Below are positions 32,911 through 38,505 of a stretch of DNA of 54,510 bases, one piece after another. The stretch is from positions 1-54,510 of the forward strand of contig JABJGE010000018.1 in assembly GCA_018662405.1 (NCBI GenBank). Reading direction: 5' to 3'. This DNA comes from Campylobacteraceae bacterium. GTDB taxonomy: Bacteria; Campylobacterota; Campylobacteria; Campylobacterales; Arcobacteraceae. The notes beneath the pieces are model-generated. The model ran no database searches and was not told the origin of the DNA. It worked only from the letters and a program-made list of their open reading frames with translations. The translations under genes and the position numbers were made by a program. Numbering within the stretch: position 1 is the stretch's first letter; every line of letters starts with the position of its first letter.

Positions 32911-33121
32911 AACATGATATTAATATTATCTAAATGAAAGCATGATTAAATGTGTATTTAAAATAAATTTAATATATAATTCCCCTAGTTTTTATATTCA
33001 ATAATAATATTATATTTGAATACTACAGGGCTATGCCGATGCTATAACTATTTATCTAACAAGCTAAATTTTATTTTATGACCACTAAAACAAAGGATGA
33101 ATTGAATATAATCTATACATT
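32911..33121 (+). promoter_or_regulatory. intergenic region with sigma54-like element
   Basis: No gene is seen. A GG-N10-GC arrangement (GG 33029-33030, GC 33041-33042, with GGC at -24 and TGCT at -12) is a weak candidate for a sigma54 promoter facing the NtrC-like gene. An imperfect dyad TATTCAA / TTGAATA lies at 32995-33022. A TATAAT at 33107-33112 would give an almost leaderless mRNA for the gene at 33122. Confidence 0.3.
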
Positions 33122-33859
33122 ATGGAAAAATTTATATCATCATCACCTTCAACAAAAAAAATTTTAAAAGTGGCGCAAATGTCAGCGTCGTTGCCTGTAA
33201 ATGTAATGATTATAGGACAAAGTGGAGTTGGAAAAAAATTATTAGCGAAAGAAATTGATCCAGAAGCACATAGCTTTTTTGCTAGAGATTTAGAAAAGAT
33301 ATTAATTGATAAAGCAATTAACCTTGAAGAACATTCTGTAATTATAATTTATAATATTCATACAGTATTAAATAAAAATGAATTTATAGAGAGACTAAAG
33401 GGTGTAAAAATTATTGCTACAACTTTTGATTCTATTGAAGAATACAATAGTGAATTTGCAGTAAAAATAGAGATACCATCTTTAGAACAAAGACCAGAAG
33501 ATTTAGATGAATTAATATATAAATATATAAAGGAAGCTAGCAATATATATTCTTCTTCCATTTCAAGAGATGATATTCGAATAGATTTAAGTGGTAATGG
33601 TATCACATTAAAACAGTCTATTTTTAAAAGTATATTATTAAAATCAATTTCTAAACCAGAGATGATGGATACATTAAATGACTTCTGTCAGAGAGAATTA
33701 AAAAATGGAAGCGATTATAAAAAACTACTAGAAATATTTGAAATCCCACTTTTAAAAGCTGCACGAAATGTATTTAAATCTCAATTACAGATGGCTACCC
33801 ATCTTAAAATAAATAGAATTACATTAAGAAAAAAGTTAAATAAGTATTTCGGAGAATAA
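33122..33859 (+). CDS. eroded NtrC-family (sigma54 activator-like) regulator
   Basis: The 245-residue protein begins directly with an AAA+ sigma54-activator-like domain and has no receiver domain. Walker A is kept (GQSGVGKK, residues 32-39). The Walker B position reads VIIIYNI (about 73-79) where active members have LFLDEI, and there is no GAFTGA loop, so ATP hydrolysis and sigma54 activation look lost. The C-terminus has a clear Fis-type HTH (LQMATHLKINRITLRKKLNK). It may bind DNA as a repressor or anti-activator. The next gene is an eroded NtrB-like sensor 6 nt away, followed by amt and glnK. Confidence 0.7.
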   Translation: MEKFISSSPSTKKILKVAQMSASLPVNVMIIGQSGVGKKLLAKEIDPEAHSFFARDLEKILIDKAINLEEHSVIIIYNIHTVLNKNEFIERLKGVKIIATTFDSIEEYNSEFAVKIEIPSLEQRPEDLDELIYKYIKEASNIYSSSISRDDIRIDLSGNGITLKQSIFKSILLKSISKPEMMDTLNDFCQRELKNGSDYKKLLEIFEIPLLKAARNVFKSQLQMATHLKINRITLRKKLNKYFGE

Positions 33860-33865
33860 GAAAGT

Positions 33866-34558
33866 ATGGATAATAGTTTATATGGATCATTAGTTGAACA
33901 CGATTTAAATCCTTTTATTTTATTTGATAGTGAAGGTAGATTAAAAGACTTTAATAAAGAAGCAGAGTTTTTATTAAATAATGTTCATAAAAAAGAACTT
34001 TTTGAATTAACTGTCTCAAATGCACCTAAAAATTATGGATTTAATCGTAAATTTTTATCTTTATCTTATGGTAAATCAAATTACTATGCAATATTAGTGG
34101 GATACTTAAATGATGAAGAAATTGTATTAAGACTTTATAAAGAAGTTGCATATGAAGAGCAAAATATAACAAATTCAAATACAGAACTAGTCAATATTTA
34201 TAGTCTTATAGAGTTATCAAAAAATAGTGTATTACTTCAAAGTAATTTAGAGATCAAAGAGACATATGATATTTCTATTCCAGAGATACCGATAAATATT
34301 AGTAATTTTTTAATAACCTTAAATGAATGTTTTGAACAGTATAAAAATGAAGATAAATTATACTTAAGGGTATTTATAAAAACAGGGGAATATGAATTAA
34401 TCAATAACAAAAAATATAATGTATTAGCCATTGAATTTACTTGTAATGAAAAAGAATTTCTTCTAACACCATCTTTAACTCAAAGTATTAAAAAATCAAA
34501 TATGCACATTTTTACCAGTAAAAATACTGTATCACTTGAACTAACAATGATTATATAA
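33866..34558 (+). CDS. eroded NtrB/histidine-kinase-like sensor
   Basis: The 230-residue protein has an N-terminal PAS-like domain (NPFILFDSEGRLKDFNKEAEFLL, residues about 16-40, to about 95) and a C-terminal part with the spacing of a GHKL ATPase: ITLNECFEQYKNEDKLYLRVFI sits where the N-box would be. There is no H-box His and no G-boxes, so phosphotransfer is unlikely. It is co-transcribed with the NtrC-like gene (6-nt gap) and lies upstream of amt-glnK. Its role as a nitrogen or redox sensor partner is inference. Confidence 0.5.
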   Translation: MDNSLYGSLVEHDLNPFILFDSEGRLKDFNKEAEFLLNNVHKKELFELTVSNAPKNYGFNRKFLSLSYGKSNYYAILVGYLNDEEIVLRLYKEVAYEEQNITNSNTELVNIYSLIELSKNSVLLQSNLEIKETYDISIPEIPINISNFLITLNECFEQYKNEDKLYLRVFIKTGEYELINNKKYNVLAIEFTCNEKEFLLTPSLTQSIKKSNMHIFTSKNTVSLELTMII

Positions 34559-34576
34559 TAGGTATGATTTATATAA

Positions 34577-34619
34577 TTAAATACAAAACTGTATAATATA
34601 TATACAGTTTTGTATTTAA
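34577..34619. promoter_or_regulatory. 43-nt perfect dyad upstream of amt
   Basis: Arms TTAAATACAAAACTGTATA (34577-34595) and its exact complement (34601-34619) flank a 5-nt centre. The right arm overlaps the -35 area of two overlapping -10 candidates TATAAT (34631-34636 and 34638-34643). It can act as a terminator-like stem for the upstream pair or as an operator over the amt promoter; there is no long U-run. Confidence 0.65.
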
Positions 34620-34672
34620 AATTATATATATATAATGTATAATTCTAAATATTAAAAAAATAGGAGTTATTT

Positions 34673-35848
34673 ATGACACCAGAAATCTCATATGTAATCG
34701 ATACATTTTTTGCAATATTTGCATTTGTATTAATTATCTTTATGGTTCCAGGTTTTGCTATGTTAGAAGCAGGACTAGTAAGAACAAAAAATGTTACATC
34801 AGTACTAATGATAAATACAATGATTTATGCACTTGCTTCAATGGCATTTTTACTTATAGGGTATTCAATAGCATTTGGTAGTATTGGATCAGATTCTATG
34901 AGTCAATGGGCAGCATTTTTATTTCAAATGGCATTTGTTGGTAAAGTAATTAATATTATGTCTGGTGGAGTAGGTGAAAGGGCTAAAATATTACCACTGG
35001 CATTATTTACAGTTATAATGGGTGGAATTCTTTATCCAATAGTAGTAAATGTATCTTGGGGAGCAAATATGCTTGCAGGAACAGCACTTGATTTAAATAT
35101 GTATGATTTAGCAGGTTCTACAGTAATTCATTCAACTGGTGGTTGGGCTTTATTAGCTGCTATTTTAATAATAGGTGCTAGAAAAGGCAGATATGGTAAA
35201 AATGGACAAATTAGAGTTATTCCTGCTGCTAATATTCCCTTAGTTACGCTAGGAGCTTTTCTTTTATGGATTGGTTGGTTTGGATTTAATGGTGGATCTG
35301 TTGGATCTATTGCATCAAAAGAAAATGCCAACTTAGTTGCACTTACAATTTTAAATACAAATACAGCAGGTTTAGCTGGTGCTATTATGGTGGGAATTAT
35401 GATGTATTTAAAATATAAAAAGCTTGATATTACAATGATTTTAAATGGTGCATTAGGTGGACTAGTATCTATTACAGCTGGACCTGACTTATATAATATT
35501 TATCAACCAATATTAATTGGTGCTATTGGTGGATTATTTGTAGTATTTGCAGTTCCTTTATTTGATAAATTAAAACTTGATGATCCAGTAGGTGCACTAT
35601 CTGTACACCTAGTAAATGGTGTTTGGGGTACATTAGCTGTTGGTATTTTTGTTGATTCAATTAGCTTTTTAGATCAATTAAAAGGTGTTGTAGTTGTTGC
35701 AATATTTGCATTTGTAAGTTCATATATTGTACTATTTATTATAAATAAAATAATGCCATTAAGAGCTAGTGATGATGAACAAATGGAAGGGCTTGATGTA
35801 AATGAATGTGGACTAGAAGCATACCCAGAATTTAAAAGAGCATTTTAA
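34673..35848 (+). CDS. amt: ammonium transporter (Amt family)
   Basis: Amt conducts ammonium across the inner membrane. The 391-residue protein has 11 predicted transmembrane helices and the family segments VPGFAMLEAGLVRTKN, FDLAG-like YDLAGSTVIHSTGGW (first pore His) and VHLVNGVWGT (second pore His). An SD TAGGAG precedes the ATG. glnK follows after 19 nt, the usual amt-glnK pairing in which GlnK blocks the pore. The dyad upstream and the NtrB/NtrC-like pair suggest local nitrogen control. Confidence 0.95.
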   Translation: MTPEISYVIDTFFAIFAFVLIIFMVPGFAMLEAGLVRTKNVTSVLMINTMIYALASMAFLLIGYSIAFGSIGSDSMSQWAAFLFQMAFVGKVINIMSGGVGERAKILPLALFTVIMGGILYPIVVNVSWGANMLAGTALDLNMYDLAGSTVIHSTGGWALLAAILIIGARKGRYGKNGQIRVIPAANIPLVTLGAFLLWIGWFGFNGGSVGSIASKENANLVALTILNTNTAGLAGAIMVGIMMYLKYKKLDITMILNGALGGLVSITAGPDLYNIYQPILIGAIGGLFVVFAVPLFDKLKLDDPVGALSVHLVNGVWGTLAVGIFVDSISFLDQLKGVVVVAIFAFVSSYIVLFIINKIMPLRASDDEQMEGLDVNECGLEAYPEFKRAF

Positions 35849-35858
35849 AATATATTAA

Positions 35859-36226
<368 letters not shown>

Positions 36227-36300: not shown

Positions 36301-37537
36301 CCTCTTTATTATCTTTTAATTTAAAAGATAATAATAATGCTACACTTAATAGTATAAGAGTAAAACTATATAAAAAAGTATAGTTTGAAAAGTTTAGAAT
36401 AATACCTCCAGCAATAGAAAAAAACATTCCAAAAGAAACTATATTTGTTTGTAGTGCTGTATATACAGGTCTTTTTTCTTCTGGTGCTAAAATAAGAATT
36501 AAATTTCCAGAAGCAATTCTATTTCCATCCATTGATGCTCCTATTATAAAAAATATAAACATATACATATAAAGTGAAGAAGCAATAAATGCTAAAGCAA
36601 TAGCTAAAATAGTCATAGATATAGTTATATGTGCAGTTAACTTATTTAAACCATTTCCACTTAACTTTGCCCAAACAATATTACTGAACATTGCTCCAAT
36701 CATTTGTGCAGTGATTAAAAGTCCAATAGCAGTACCATCTAAATTTATTTTACTACCCGCATCAACAATAATAAATGGAAGTGCAAAAAGATATGAATAA
36801 GCAAAAAGAAAAGTTGATACTTGTATTTTTAGTTGTTTATCACTTTTTAGTGTGGCAAAGGCATTTTTCAAAAATAGTTTGAATGATTTTTCTTTCGTAG
36901 CTACTTTCTCTTTAATAGGTTCTGCAACTGTTCCTATAGCAAGATATCCAAACCCCATAATAAATGCAGAGGCTACAAAAAGATATCCAAAACTATAAGG
37001 AGCTGGATATATTTCTAATATATATCCAGCAGCAGCACCACTTATTAATGCTCCAAATCCTGAGAAAAACTGTCTTGCTGACATTGTTTTTCCACGAAAT
37101 TTATGTGAAAATATTTTAGCAATAATTTCTCTAAAATATATAGCACCAAATCCAGCTGAAAATGAAAATATAAATAATCCAATACCAATACACCAAAGTG
37201 TGAAAGTAGGGTGATCCTCGCCAAAAAGTAATATAGCTATACCAATACTTAGCCAAGATATAAATCTTGTTGTTAATACTCTTCTAAAGTATTTCATCAT
37301 ACGAGGATAACTTTGTGCATGGAAAGCAGCGTAAAGCTGTACTAGTATTGCTCCACCACGAAGAAGTGATGAAAATAATCCAATTAGTATTGGACCACCA
37401 CCAAAATGACTAATAATAAGTGGTAAAATTGTATGAGGTTCTGCTATTGTTGTTCCAATAGAAAGAAAAAAACCATGTAAAATATTTTTTACATGGTCAC
37501 TTTTCTTATTTGCTGGTTCTATTTTTTTTTCTTCCAT
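36281..37537 (-). CDS. MFS transporter in the precorrin-2 dehydrogenase operon
   Basis: The 418-residue protein has about 12 transmembrane helices in two halves, typical of the major facilitator superfamily, e.g. GGGPILIGLFSSLLRGG early and MIGAMFSNIVWAKLSGNG in the second half. I chose the ATG at 37537 because it overlaps the previous stop as TAATG; a TTG three codons upstream is in frame. It is the last gene of a four-gene operon led by a precorrin-2 dehydrogenase, with an FNR-type box at its promoter, so nitrate/nitrite, a tetrapyrrole or a toxic N-compound are conceivable cargos. It is not a clear NarK by sequence. Confidence 0.8.
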   Translation of the reverse strand: MEEKKIEPANKKSDHVKNILHGFFLSIGTTIAEPHTILPLIISHFGGGPILIGLFSSLLRGGAILVQLYAAFHAQSYPRMMKYFRRVLTTRFISWLSIGIAILLFGEDHPTFTLWCIGIGLFIFSFSAGFGAIYFREIIAKIFSHKFRGKTMSARQFFSGFGALISGAAAGYILEIYPAPYSFGYLFVASAFIMGFGYLAIGTVAEPIKEKVATKEKSFKLFLKNAFATLKSDKQLKIQVSTFLFAYSYLFALPFIIVDAGSKINLDGTAIGLLITAQMIGAMFSNIVWAKLSGNGLNKLTAHITISMTILAIALAFIASSLYMYMFIFFIIGASMDGNRIASGNLILILAPEEKRPVYTALQTNIVSFGMFFSIAGGIILNFSNYTFLYSFTLILLSVALLLSFKLKDNKEEKALFK

Positions 37538-38505
37538 TATTCCCAATCAAGTAGTCTTTGTTGACCTTTTAGGTTTCGTATATGAGTTACATCTTGACTC
37601 ATCTCTATTACACCTCTATATGTTCCATCTTCATCTCTTATTGCAAAGTACTGAATATGTATAAATTTACCTTTAAATTCTATCCAAAATTCAGCATCAT
37701 CTTTCCTTCCTGCTTTAAATTCTCTTAAAATCATAAGAACTTGATCAACACTTTTAGGAGGATGACAGAATTTAACTTCTCTACCAATTATACCAGCACT
37801 TCTTGGAAATACTCTATTGTCACCTCTATTATAGAATAATACAATATCATTTTCATCTACATATGTTAAATCAACTGGCATGAATTGTAGCATTAAATTT
37901 AATTGATCTTCAAGTAACCAACCTTCATTTAATTTAATTCGTCCATCTAATGAGAATGGTAATTTTCGTCTTTTTTTATCTTGTCCTGGATGAATATATT
38001 CAGGATATGACATAGGTGCTTTTTCAAACATCCAACCAATTTCATCATCACTTGCAGATATCTCTTTCCAATCATCATCATTTAACATATTCATAGCATT
38101 TGGAAGTAGTCTATGTTCCTCAACTTGCATAATATGATCTAAACTTCTAAATACAGCTTGAATATTTTGGCTAATAGCTACTATATCTTTATCTCTAATT
38201 GATTGATTGGCTAGTTTAATCTCATCTCTAATTTGATCATGAAATGCCCACATATTTTGTGATGGACTAGTCCAACCATATTTCTCTAAATATGGAAATA
38301 ATTGATTCTCTTTTCTTTGCCAATGAAGTTCAACTTTACATAGTTGTTCCCAAAATATTTTAAATGCTTCAGTAGATTCTTTAATGTTTAAATTATTTAT
38401 GTTTTCTATTAATTGTCTTGTTAATTCATTTTCTTCATAATAAACCCTACAAGGATGTCCTGCGACTAATCCTGTCTGGTGCTCATTATTTATAAATTCA
38501 CTCAT
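37537..38505 (-). CDS. haemerythrin-PAS protein (DUF438-like)
   Basis: The 322-residue protein has an N-terminal haemerythrin-like four-helix region with likely iron ligands H17 (GHPC), H61 and E66 (ELHWQRKEN), H89 (FHDQ), H124 and E129/H131 (HIMQVEEHRLLP), then a PAS domain (about residues 205-315; FYNRGDNRVFPRSAGIIGREVKFCHPP). There is no kinase, cyclase or HTH output. The iron site could bind O2 or NO. The operon places it with siroheme/haem d1 synthesis under a predicted FNR-type box, so NO sensing or scavenging, or iron repair during denitrification, is the best inference. Confidence 0.82.
   Translation of the reverse strand: MSEFINNEHQTGLVAGHPCRVYYEENELTRQLIENINNLNIKESTEAFKIFWEQLCKVELHWQRKENQLFPYLEKYGWTSPSQNMWAFHDQIRDEIKLANQSIRDKDIVAISQNIQAVFRSLDHIMQVEEHRLLPNAMNMLNDDDWKEISASDDEIGWMFEKAPMSYPEYIHPGQDKKRRKLPFSLDGRIKLNEGWLLEDQLNLMLQFMPVDLTYVDENDIVLFYNRGDNRVFPRSAGIIGREVKFCHPPKSVDQVLMILREFKAGRKDDAEFWIEFKGKFIHIQYFAIRDEDGTYRGVIEMSQDVTHIRNLKGQQRLLDWE

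Follow-up and report, generated by a model that had tools for sequence, protein, structure and literature searches.

The window, the whole stretch of 54.5 kb analysed here, carries four genes in the order A, B, amt and glnK (Table 1). A sequence-only reading had described A and B as an eroded NtrC/NtrB-like pair that had probably been repurposed. By computation we established the anatomy, conservation, co-occurrence, operator, regulon and promoter geometry of this pair. Both genes are intact open frames of full length, as had been stated, and the same forms recur in 267 of the 398 genomes of the order. Further downstream on the minus strand (37537-38505) lies a gene for a hemerythrin-like domain joined to PAS_10, unrelated to A and B.

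Table 1 Genes and regulatory features of the A-B-amt-glnK locus, as positions in the window.
Feature	Position	Strand	Remarks
Weaker operator copy directly 5' of A	33103..33119	strandless	1 mismatch; sole 1-mismatch copy in the 54.5 kb window
A, receiver-less NtrC-like AAA+/Fis-HTH protein, predicted DNA-binding nitrogen regulator	33122..33859	+	245 aa
B, NtrB-like pseudokinase, PAS-like region and CA/GHKL, without DHp, His, N and G boxes	33866..34558	+	230 aa
Whole dyad, perfect inverted repeat, contains the operator core	34577..34619	strandless	19-bp arms, 5-nt loop
Predicted operator core TGTATA-N5-TATACA	34590..34606	strandless	17 bp; the assembly (1.31 Mb) has no other exact copy
Candidate -35 element of the amt promoter, TTAAAA	34616..34621	+	consensus scan; geometry
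Candidate -10 element, TATAAT	34638..34643	+	consensus scan; geometry; 48 nt from operator-core start, as in relatives
amt, ammonium transporter, predicted target	34673..35848	+	
glnK, PII protein, predicted target that may also give the signal	35868..36206	+	

Anatomy of the two proteins

In A, the Pfam Sigma54_activat match was limited to residues 5–46 (E 1.3e-5), and an HTH_8 match covered residues 203–242 (E 4e-4, slightly under the model cut-off). When the family profile of A was compared with E. coli NtrC by hhalign, it matched NtrC residues 138–467, corresponding to the AAA+ and HTH domains (E 2e-11, probability 97). No receiver domain was found, the alignment beginning at NtrC residue 138 and the 36 sequences examined being 244–311 aa long. 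These order-wide sequences have kept the P-loop (Gly32 and Gly37 in 36/36, Lys38 in 35/36). A GAFTGA-like motif was present in 0/36, with a gap at its place in the NtrC alignment, and a Walker B motif (hydrophobic-DE) likewise in 0/36. The Walker B place reads VIIIYNI in the A of the window; some relatives had one acid at residue 77 (D in 4/36, E in 5/36). The invariant residues over the 36 distant sequences numbered 16, and both the recognition helix and the P-loop glycines were among them. The helix, NRxTLRKK, was identical in 36/36 except at x, and two further A proteins outside this set read NRATLTxKL.

The predicted structure of A had a mean pLDDT of 93.8. In this model, residues 1–174 resembled the sigma-54 activator fold of NtrC4 (Z 15.8, rmsd 2.6, 174 residues), and residues 1–244 the fold of NtrX (Z 14.9, rmsd 6.3, 232 residues). 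VpsR was also among the predicted fold matches (Z 14.4). The HTH matched Fis structures, and is thus of the Fis type. The hhalign result and the motif counts agree with the earlier description of A as an NtrC-like protein with a P-loop and a Fis HTH, and with no receiver, Walker B or GAFTGA. Among the AAA+ matches in its own assembly, A was the sole recognisable relative of sigma-54 activators; the other Sigma54_activat matches lay in frames of 744, 860, 428 and 335 aa, which by length look like other AAA+ proteins.

For B, the predicted fold (mean pLDDT 87) suggests a PAS-like region joined directly, without an intervening DHp segment, to a histidine-kinase catalytic domain. The model resembled the NtrB catalytic domain 1r62 (Z 13.2, rmsd 3.1, 123 residues) and ThkA (Z 14.1, rmsd 2.4, 116 residues). 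The H-box, G1 and G2 were found in 0/35 members, compared with 9/9 real NtrB controls, and an N-box-like pattern in 1/35, compared again with 9/9. Pfam PAS matched four of the 35 members (best 3e-5), and the NR(II) model NF008293 weakly matched 11 (best 1.5e-4, far under the cut-off). Against the single E. coli NtrB there was a weak match, in the PAS part only. The PDB sequences matching the B profile included no kinase, the best match being unrelated (E 0.13). Plasmids searched for NtrB yielded kinases of a general kind, which did not enter the analysis. At the sequence level, B is tied to NtrB most clearly by the DPSLP segment that precedes the N box; over this segment, the B profile matched sphingomonad NtrB (i-E 8e-6). 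Sensing of a ligand by the PAS-like region is possible. The partner had been described as PAS-like and GHKL-like without the His or G-boxes, and both the counts and the predicted fold bear this out. For the two proteins alike, the catalytic motifs remained absent when sought on proper alignment, as that reading held.

Distribution and gene neighbourhood

We checked the presence of the pair across the Arcobacteraceae, and found each of the two genes in 81 of 104 genomes. Both were present in 80, A alone in one (G075), B alone in one (G041) and neither in 22. In the 398 genomes of the order, both were present in 267, A alone in six, B alone in five and neither in 120. For the order-wide counts, A was called at E < 1e-15, leaving out weak matches (87/360, E > 1e-10), and the co-occurrence and PII counts were made by hand and eye from the profile match lists. 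Ten of the 11 genomes with a single gene were at most 91% complete. In families f10 and f13, A and B were absent or weakly matched.

The idea of a locally eroded pair does not hold up, the same losses running through the whole order. A shrinking genome in which a lost NtrBC decays like a pseudogene would fit the small assembly (1.31 Mb) and its lack of RpoN. Against it stand the full-length frames, the 16 invariant residues and the same losses in 267 of 398 genomes, even where RpoN is present. Local decay is ruled out by the order-wide conservation of the reduced forms, which already contradicts the decay reading as a whole, and we give the latter next to no chance.

RpoN was not found in the 1.31 Mb assembly of the window, which is 95% complete. 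Because A is far commoner in the Arcobacteraceae (81/104) than RpoN (33/104), a link dependent on RpoN was rejected.

The two genes were kept jointly although they are often unlinked and far apart in the genomes. B follows rpoD both in many families where A, flanked by slyD and fabD, stands at the end of a tol-pal operon, and in most Arcobacteraceae, where A is found near glnD and amt-glnK. A-B operons, often beside amt or glnK, were found in several families. Of the 81 Arcobacteraceae genomes with A, 63 had glnD within 3 kb, at least 58 had amt within 10 kb, and 13 had B adjacent; among the matches listed, a single genome had none of the three nearby. The proposed link to amt-glnK is supported.

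From this co-occurrence and neighbourhood we infer that B and A work together. Alternatively, B could act elsewhere, for example on RpoD, with A working alone or itself sensing ATP or a small molecule. The position of B after rpoD in many genomes and the invariant P-loop of A would suit this, but the near-perfect joint presence and loss of the two genes, and the recurrence of A-B operons in several families, argue for a common role. We regard a separate role of B as rather unlikely. PII was found in 271 of the 278 genomes with A or B, compared with 36 of the 120 genomes without them, so that it also occurs where the pair is lacking.

The A/B-negative genomes G005, G007, G008, G009, G012, G014, G029 and G031 have kept GlnD, with E values of about 1e-20 to 1e-24. 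In most A/B-positive Arcobacteraceae GlnD scores better (E about 1e-23 to 1e-31), as if it had been altered in the negative genomes after loss of the pair.

Operator, predicted regulon and promoter geometry

The palindromes upstream of amt and of A share the 17-bp sequence TGTATA-N5-TATACA, with a 6-5-6 layout. In the discovery set, this operator was present in 10/24 amt upstream regions and in 3/386 other upstream regions. The first reading had been TTGTATA with free spacing, and was narrowed to a 5-nt spacer before scoring fresh regions, in which a match required at least 11 of the 12 core bases. In the fresh regions, some of them from genomes sharing a genus with the discovery set, the operator preceded amt in 29/32 regions of A/B-positive Arcobacteraceae. 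Where the fetched amt was not beside A, it was found in 10/12. In A/B-negative genomes it was found in 1/8 (G050, a draft in 190 contigs).

Eight genomes contained 32 exact sites, compared with seven for the reversed pattern. The assembly of the window had one exact copy, before amt, and the reversed control also gave one; at two mismatches, the window had 11 sites where 11.8 were expected by chance, i.e., no excess. The dyad upstream of amt, suggested earlier as a binding site, holds the conserved operator core and is predicted to be bound. In a consensus scan this dyad looked terminator-like, yet copies of its core also stand upstream of unlinked amt, glnA and nitrate genes, and a function as terminator alone was rejected. 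An amt copy with an internal TGA (G046:C47:232383-233339) also had an exact operator upstream, at 233597-233613.

Of the 32 exact sites, 20 were before nitrogen genes, 11 of them amt and nine others. Sites before glnA (two), nirB (one) and urtA (one) belong to genes that passed their models. Two sites were at a NarK-family carrier with an NrtA-like gene, NarK being under its cut-off, and two at divergent NrtA-like/NasA-like pairs, named by position and weak family matches. One site preceded a ureidoglycolate-lyase-like gene (under cut-off). About 11 of the 32 had no recognised nitrogen neighbour, including sites at a porin and an acetolactate synthase. The same gene classes (glnA, amt, glnK, nas, nrt, narK, urt) are reported for NtrC regulons elsewhere (PMC5343134). 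The suggestion that the pair had been repurposed is thus not supported, its predicted targets being those that NtrC reportedly controls in other bacteria. Since the same reduced forms occur order-wide and the targets are NtrC-like, it appears that the pair has retained its task and that its signalling parts have changed.

In ten genomes from other families, the exact TGTATA operator was at chance level except in G142 (3 vs 0), and the search therefore led to a second form. Outside the Arcobacteraceae, the amt upstream regions of most other families carry TGATTA-N5-TAATCA, a form that was read in amt/glnK stretches alone. The operator form went along with the residue at x of NRxTLRKK. With Asn, TGATTA was found in 13/15 genomes and TGTATA in none; with Ile, Val, Thr or Met, TGTATA was found in 22/24 genomes and TGATTA in none. 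This comparison covered 67 genomes with an amt or glnA start, including four of the eight A/B-negative ones, and the A residue was missing in 24. Two f18 genomes with NRATL had the TGTATA operator. On the A tree the operator type changed once (support 100/99), and the rows of the comparison are therefore not independent. Families f1, f6 and f18 hold both types of A, and there the operator type goes with A and not with the family. In these families amt often travels beside A; in G142 (f6) the operator-bearing amt is on another contig than A.

One member of the Arcobacteraceae, G043, carries on contig C13 (L038 / L162) a second, distant A-B pair in addition to its own; A is of the Asn type, with a TGATTA operator, in the second pair and of the Ile type in the genome's own. 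The second pair looks like a transferred cassette.

The operator might belong to another, unlinked regulator, A and B being mere companions of the nitrogen genes with a different role. The tol-pal/slyD-fabD neighbourhood of A in many families would be compatible with this, as would the half-site TTGAT, which is similar to CRP/FNR half-sites. However, FNR and CRP sites have N4 between TTGAT and ATCAA, whereas the spacing here is N9. Moreover, the operator is present with A and B and mostly absent without them, follows the clade and the recognition residue of A, lies also before A itself, and has the layout of the NtrC box. We consider ownership by another regulator quite improbable.

The distance between operator and promoter was also conserved. 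A -10 box was found at an offset of 47–50 from the operator start in 30/39 Arcobacteraceae promoters (shuffles: mean 5.2, maximum 12) and in 15/21 promoters of other families (shuffles: mean 2.3, maximum 8). The operator centre thus lies ~52 bp upstream of the inferred start site, just above the -35 element. A site just upstream of the -35 element is the place of an activator at a sigma-70 promoter, and the fixed distance of the -10 box from the operator suggests a sigma-70 activator geometry.

By eye we read a TATAAT (33107-33112) inside the weaker operator copy, ~10 nt upstream of the ATG of A. Given this distance, A may be transcribed almost leaderless, and its autoregulation through the weaker copy is possible. 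That this copy covers a TATAAT would also suit a repressor, released from these promoters under nitrogen limitation, and NtrC-type proteins can also repress. Repression, however, needs no fixed distance between operator and -10 box, and such a distance, with the operator at ~-52, was found for both operator sequences (30/39 and 15/21). The data thus point to activation by A, and we think a repressor unlikely.

Proposed mechanism and known systems

In our view, A and B are likely to represent NtrC and NtrB in this order, in a reduced, phosphotransfer-free form that runs the nitrogen-uptake genes. As a Fis-type HTH dimer, A would bind the 17-bp palindrome, in its TGTATA form in the Arcobacteraceae and its TGATTA form in most other families. 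With the housekeeping RNA polymerase, at a plain -10 box, it would switch on amt-glnK, glnA, and genes for nitrate and urea uptake, and would need no sigma-54, which is absent from its own assembly. Lacking both kinase and receiver, the pair would have to relay its signal through contact or a ligand. As a pseudokinase partner, B would learn the nitrogen status from GlnK/PII, and perhaps also from a PAS ligand, and would hold or release A through direct contact, in the manner of NifL with NifA. The ATP bound by A would be a structural ligand, not fuel. A P-loop kept without Walker B would fit ATP binding without hydrolysis, for which there is a precedent in NtrC of R. capsulatus, reported to need ATP binding and not its hydrolysis (PMC10274813).

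We put forward a more complete scenario tentatively, giving it slightly under an even chance. The nitrogen regulon of the order would rest on a former two-component pair from which all phosphotransfer parts are gone. B would read PII/GlnK, and perhaps a PAS ligand; A would use ATP as a ligand alone, and would open sigma-70 promoters from an AT-rich operator that derives from the NtrC box and has changed together with the recognition helix.

The AAA+/HTH and CA domains of NtrC and NtrB, from E. coli and the Pseudomonadota, align with A and B. Unlike these, A has no receiver, Walker-B Asp-Glu or GAFTGA, and B no DHp, His, N or G boxes; the promoters of the A/B system are sigma-70-like, and RpoN is often absent. 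The NtrC box is given as the 17-bp palindrome TGCACCAnnnTGGTGCA (PMC8743547). Both it and the operator of A are 6-5-6 palindromes with TG...CA ends, but the inner bases differ. A and B are thus a variant of NtrBC, and not a member by the usual definition.

Fis shares the HTH type of A and has no AAA+-derived P-loop domain, unlike A; in its core site, G and C are 15 bp apart, as in the operator of A. NtrC-type proteins without GAFTGA, from R. capsulatus and Caulobacter, and VpsR, are described as acting at sigma-70 promoters, and the NtrC of Rhodobacter capsulatus and Caulobacter as needing a phospho-aspartate (PMC10274813). The predicted site of A likewise stands at a set distance upstream of a sigma-70 promoter (30/39, 15/21); these proteins keep the receiver, whereas A has neither receiver nor Walker B. 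FlgS/FlgR of Campylobacter and Helicobacter are reported as an NtrB/NtrC-like flagellar pair of this order (PMC2147049), but form a true two-component system with RpoN, unlike A and B.

By analogy, the nearest precedent for control of A by B is NifL-NifA with GlnK. NifL is described as PAS plus GHKL, controlling NifA by contact, with the nitrogen signal of GlnK entering at the GHKL domain (PMC8219145). It has retained an H domain and a GHKL domain that binds ADP, whereas B is far shorter and its contact with A and GlnK is proposed. NifA, unlike A, has a GAF domain and is an activator of the sigma-54 class.

The absence of NtrB/NtrC and RpoN is noted in the paper on the A. butzleri genome (PMC2147049). 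A survey of proteobacterial regulons states that it excluded epsilonproteobacteria for want of orthologues of the regulators studied, including NtrC (PMC5343134). With NtrB/NtrC reported lacking, the control of nitrogen uptake in the free-living members had therefore been open. Our literature search, which left most subscription journals outside its scope, found no published account of a nitrogen regulator in the Campylobacterota. The present analysis names two factors and an operator for nitrogen control in the order, together with a list of genes, all testable at once. It also offers a case in which a two-component pair seems to keep its regulon after losing the kinase, the receiver and the contact to sigma-54, protein and operator having changed together.

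Two further genes accompany A. In many Arcobacteraceae it lies beside a conserved membrane-protein-like gene of 287–291 aa (L034:4951-5814, L044:5842, and relatives), often with the operator upstream. Directly 5' of A-B in two genomes of one genus, there is a gene of 349 aa (L046:5552-6601, L047:7967-9016), and in G072 an exact operator site precedes a 349-aa gene upstream of A.
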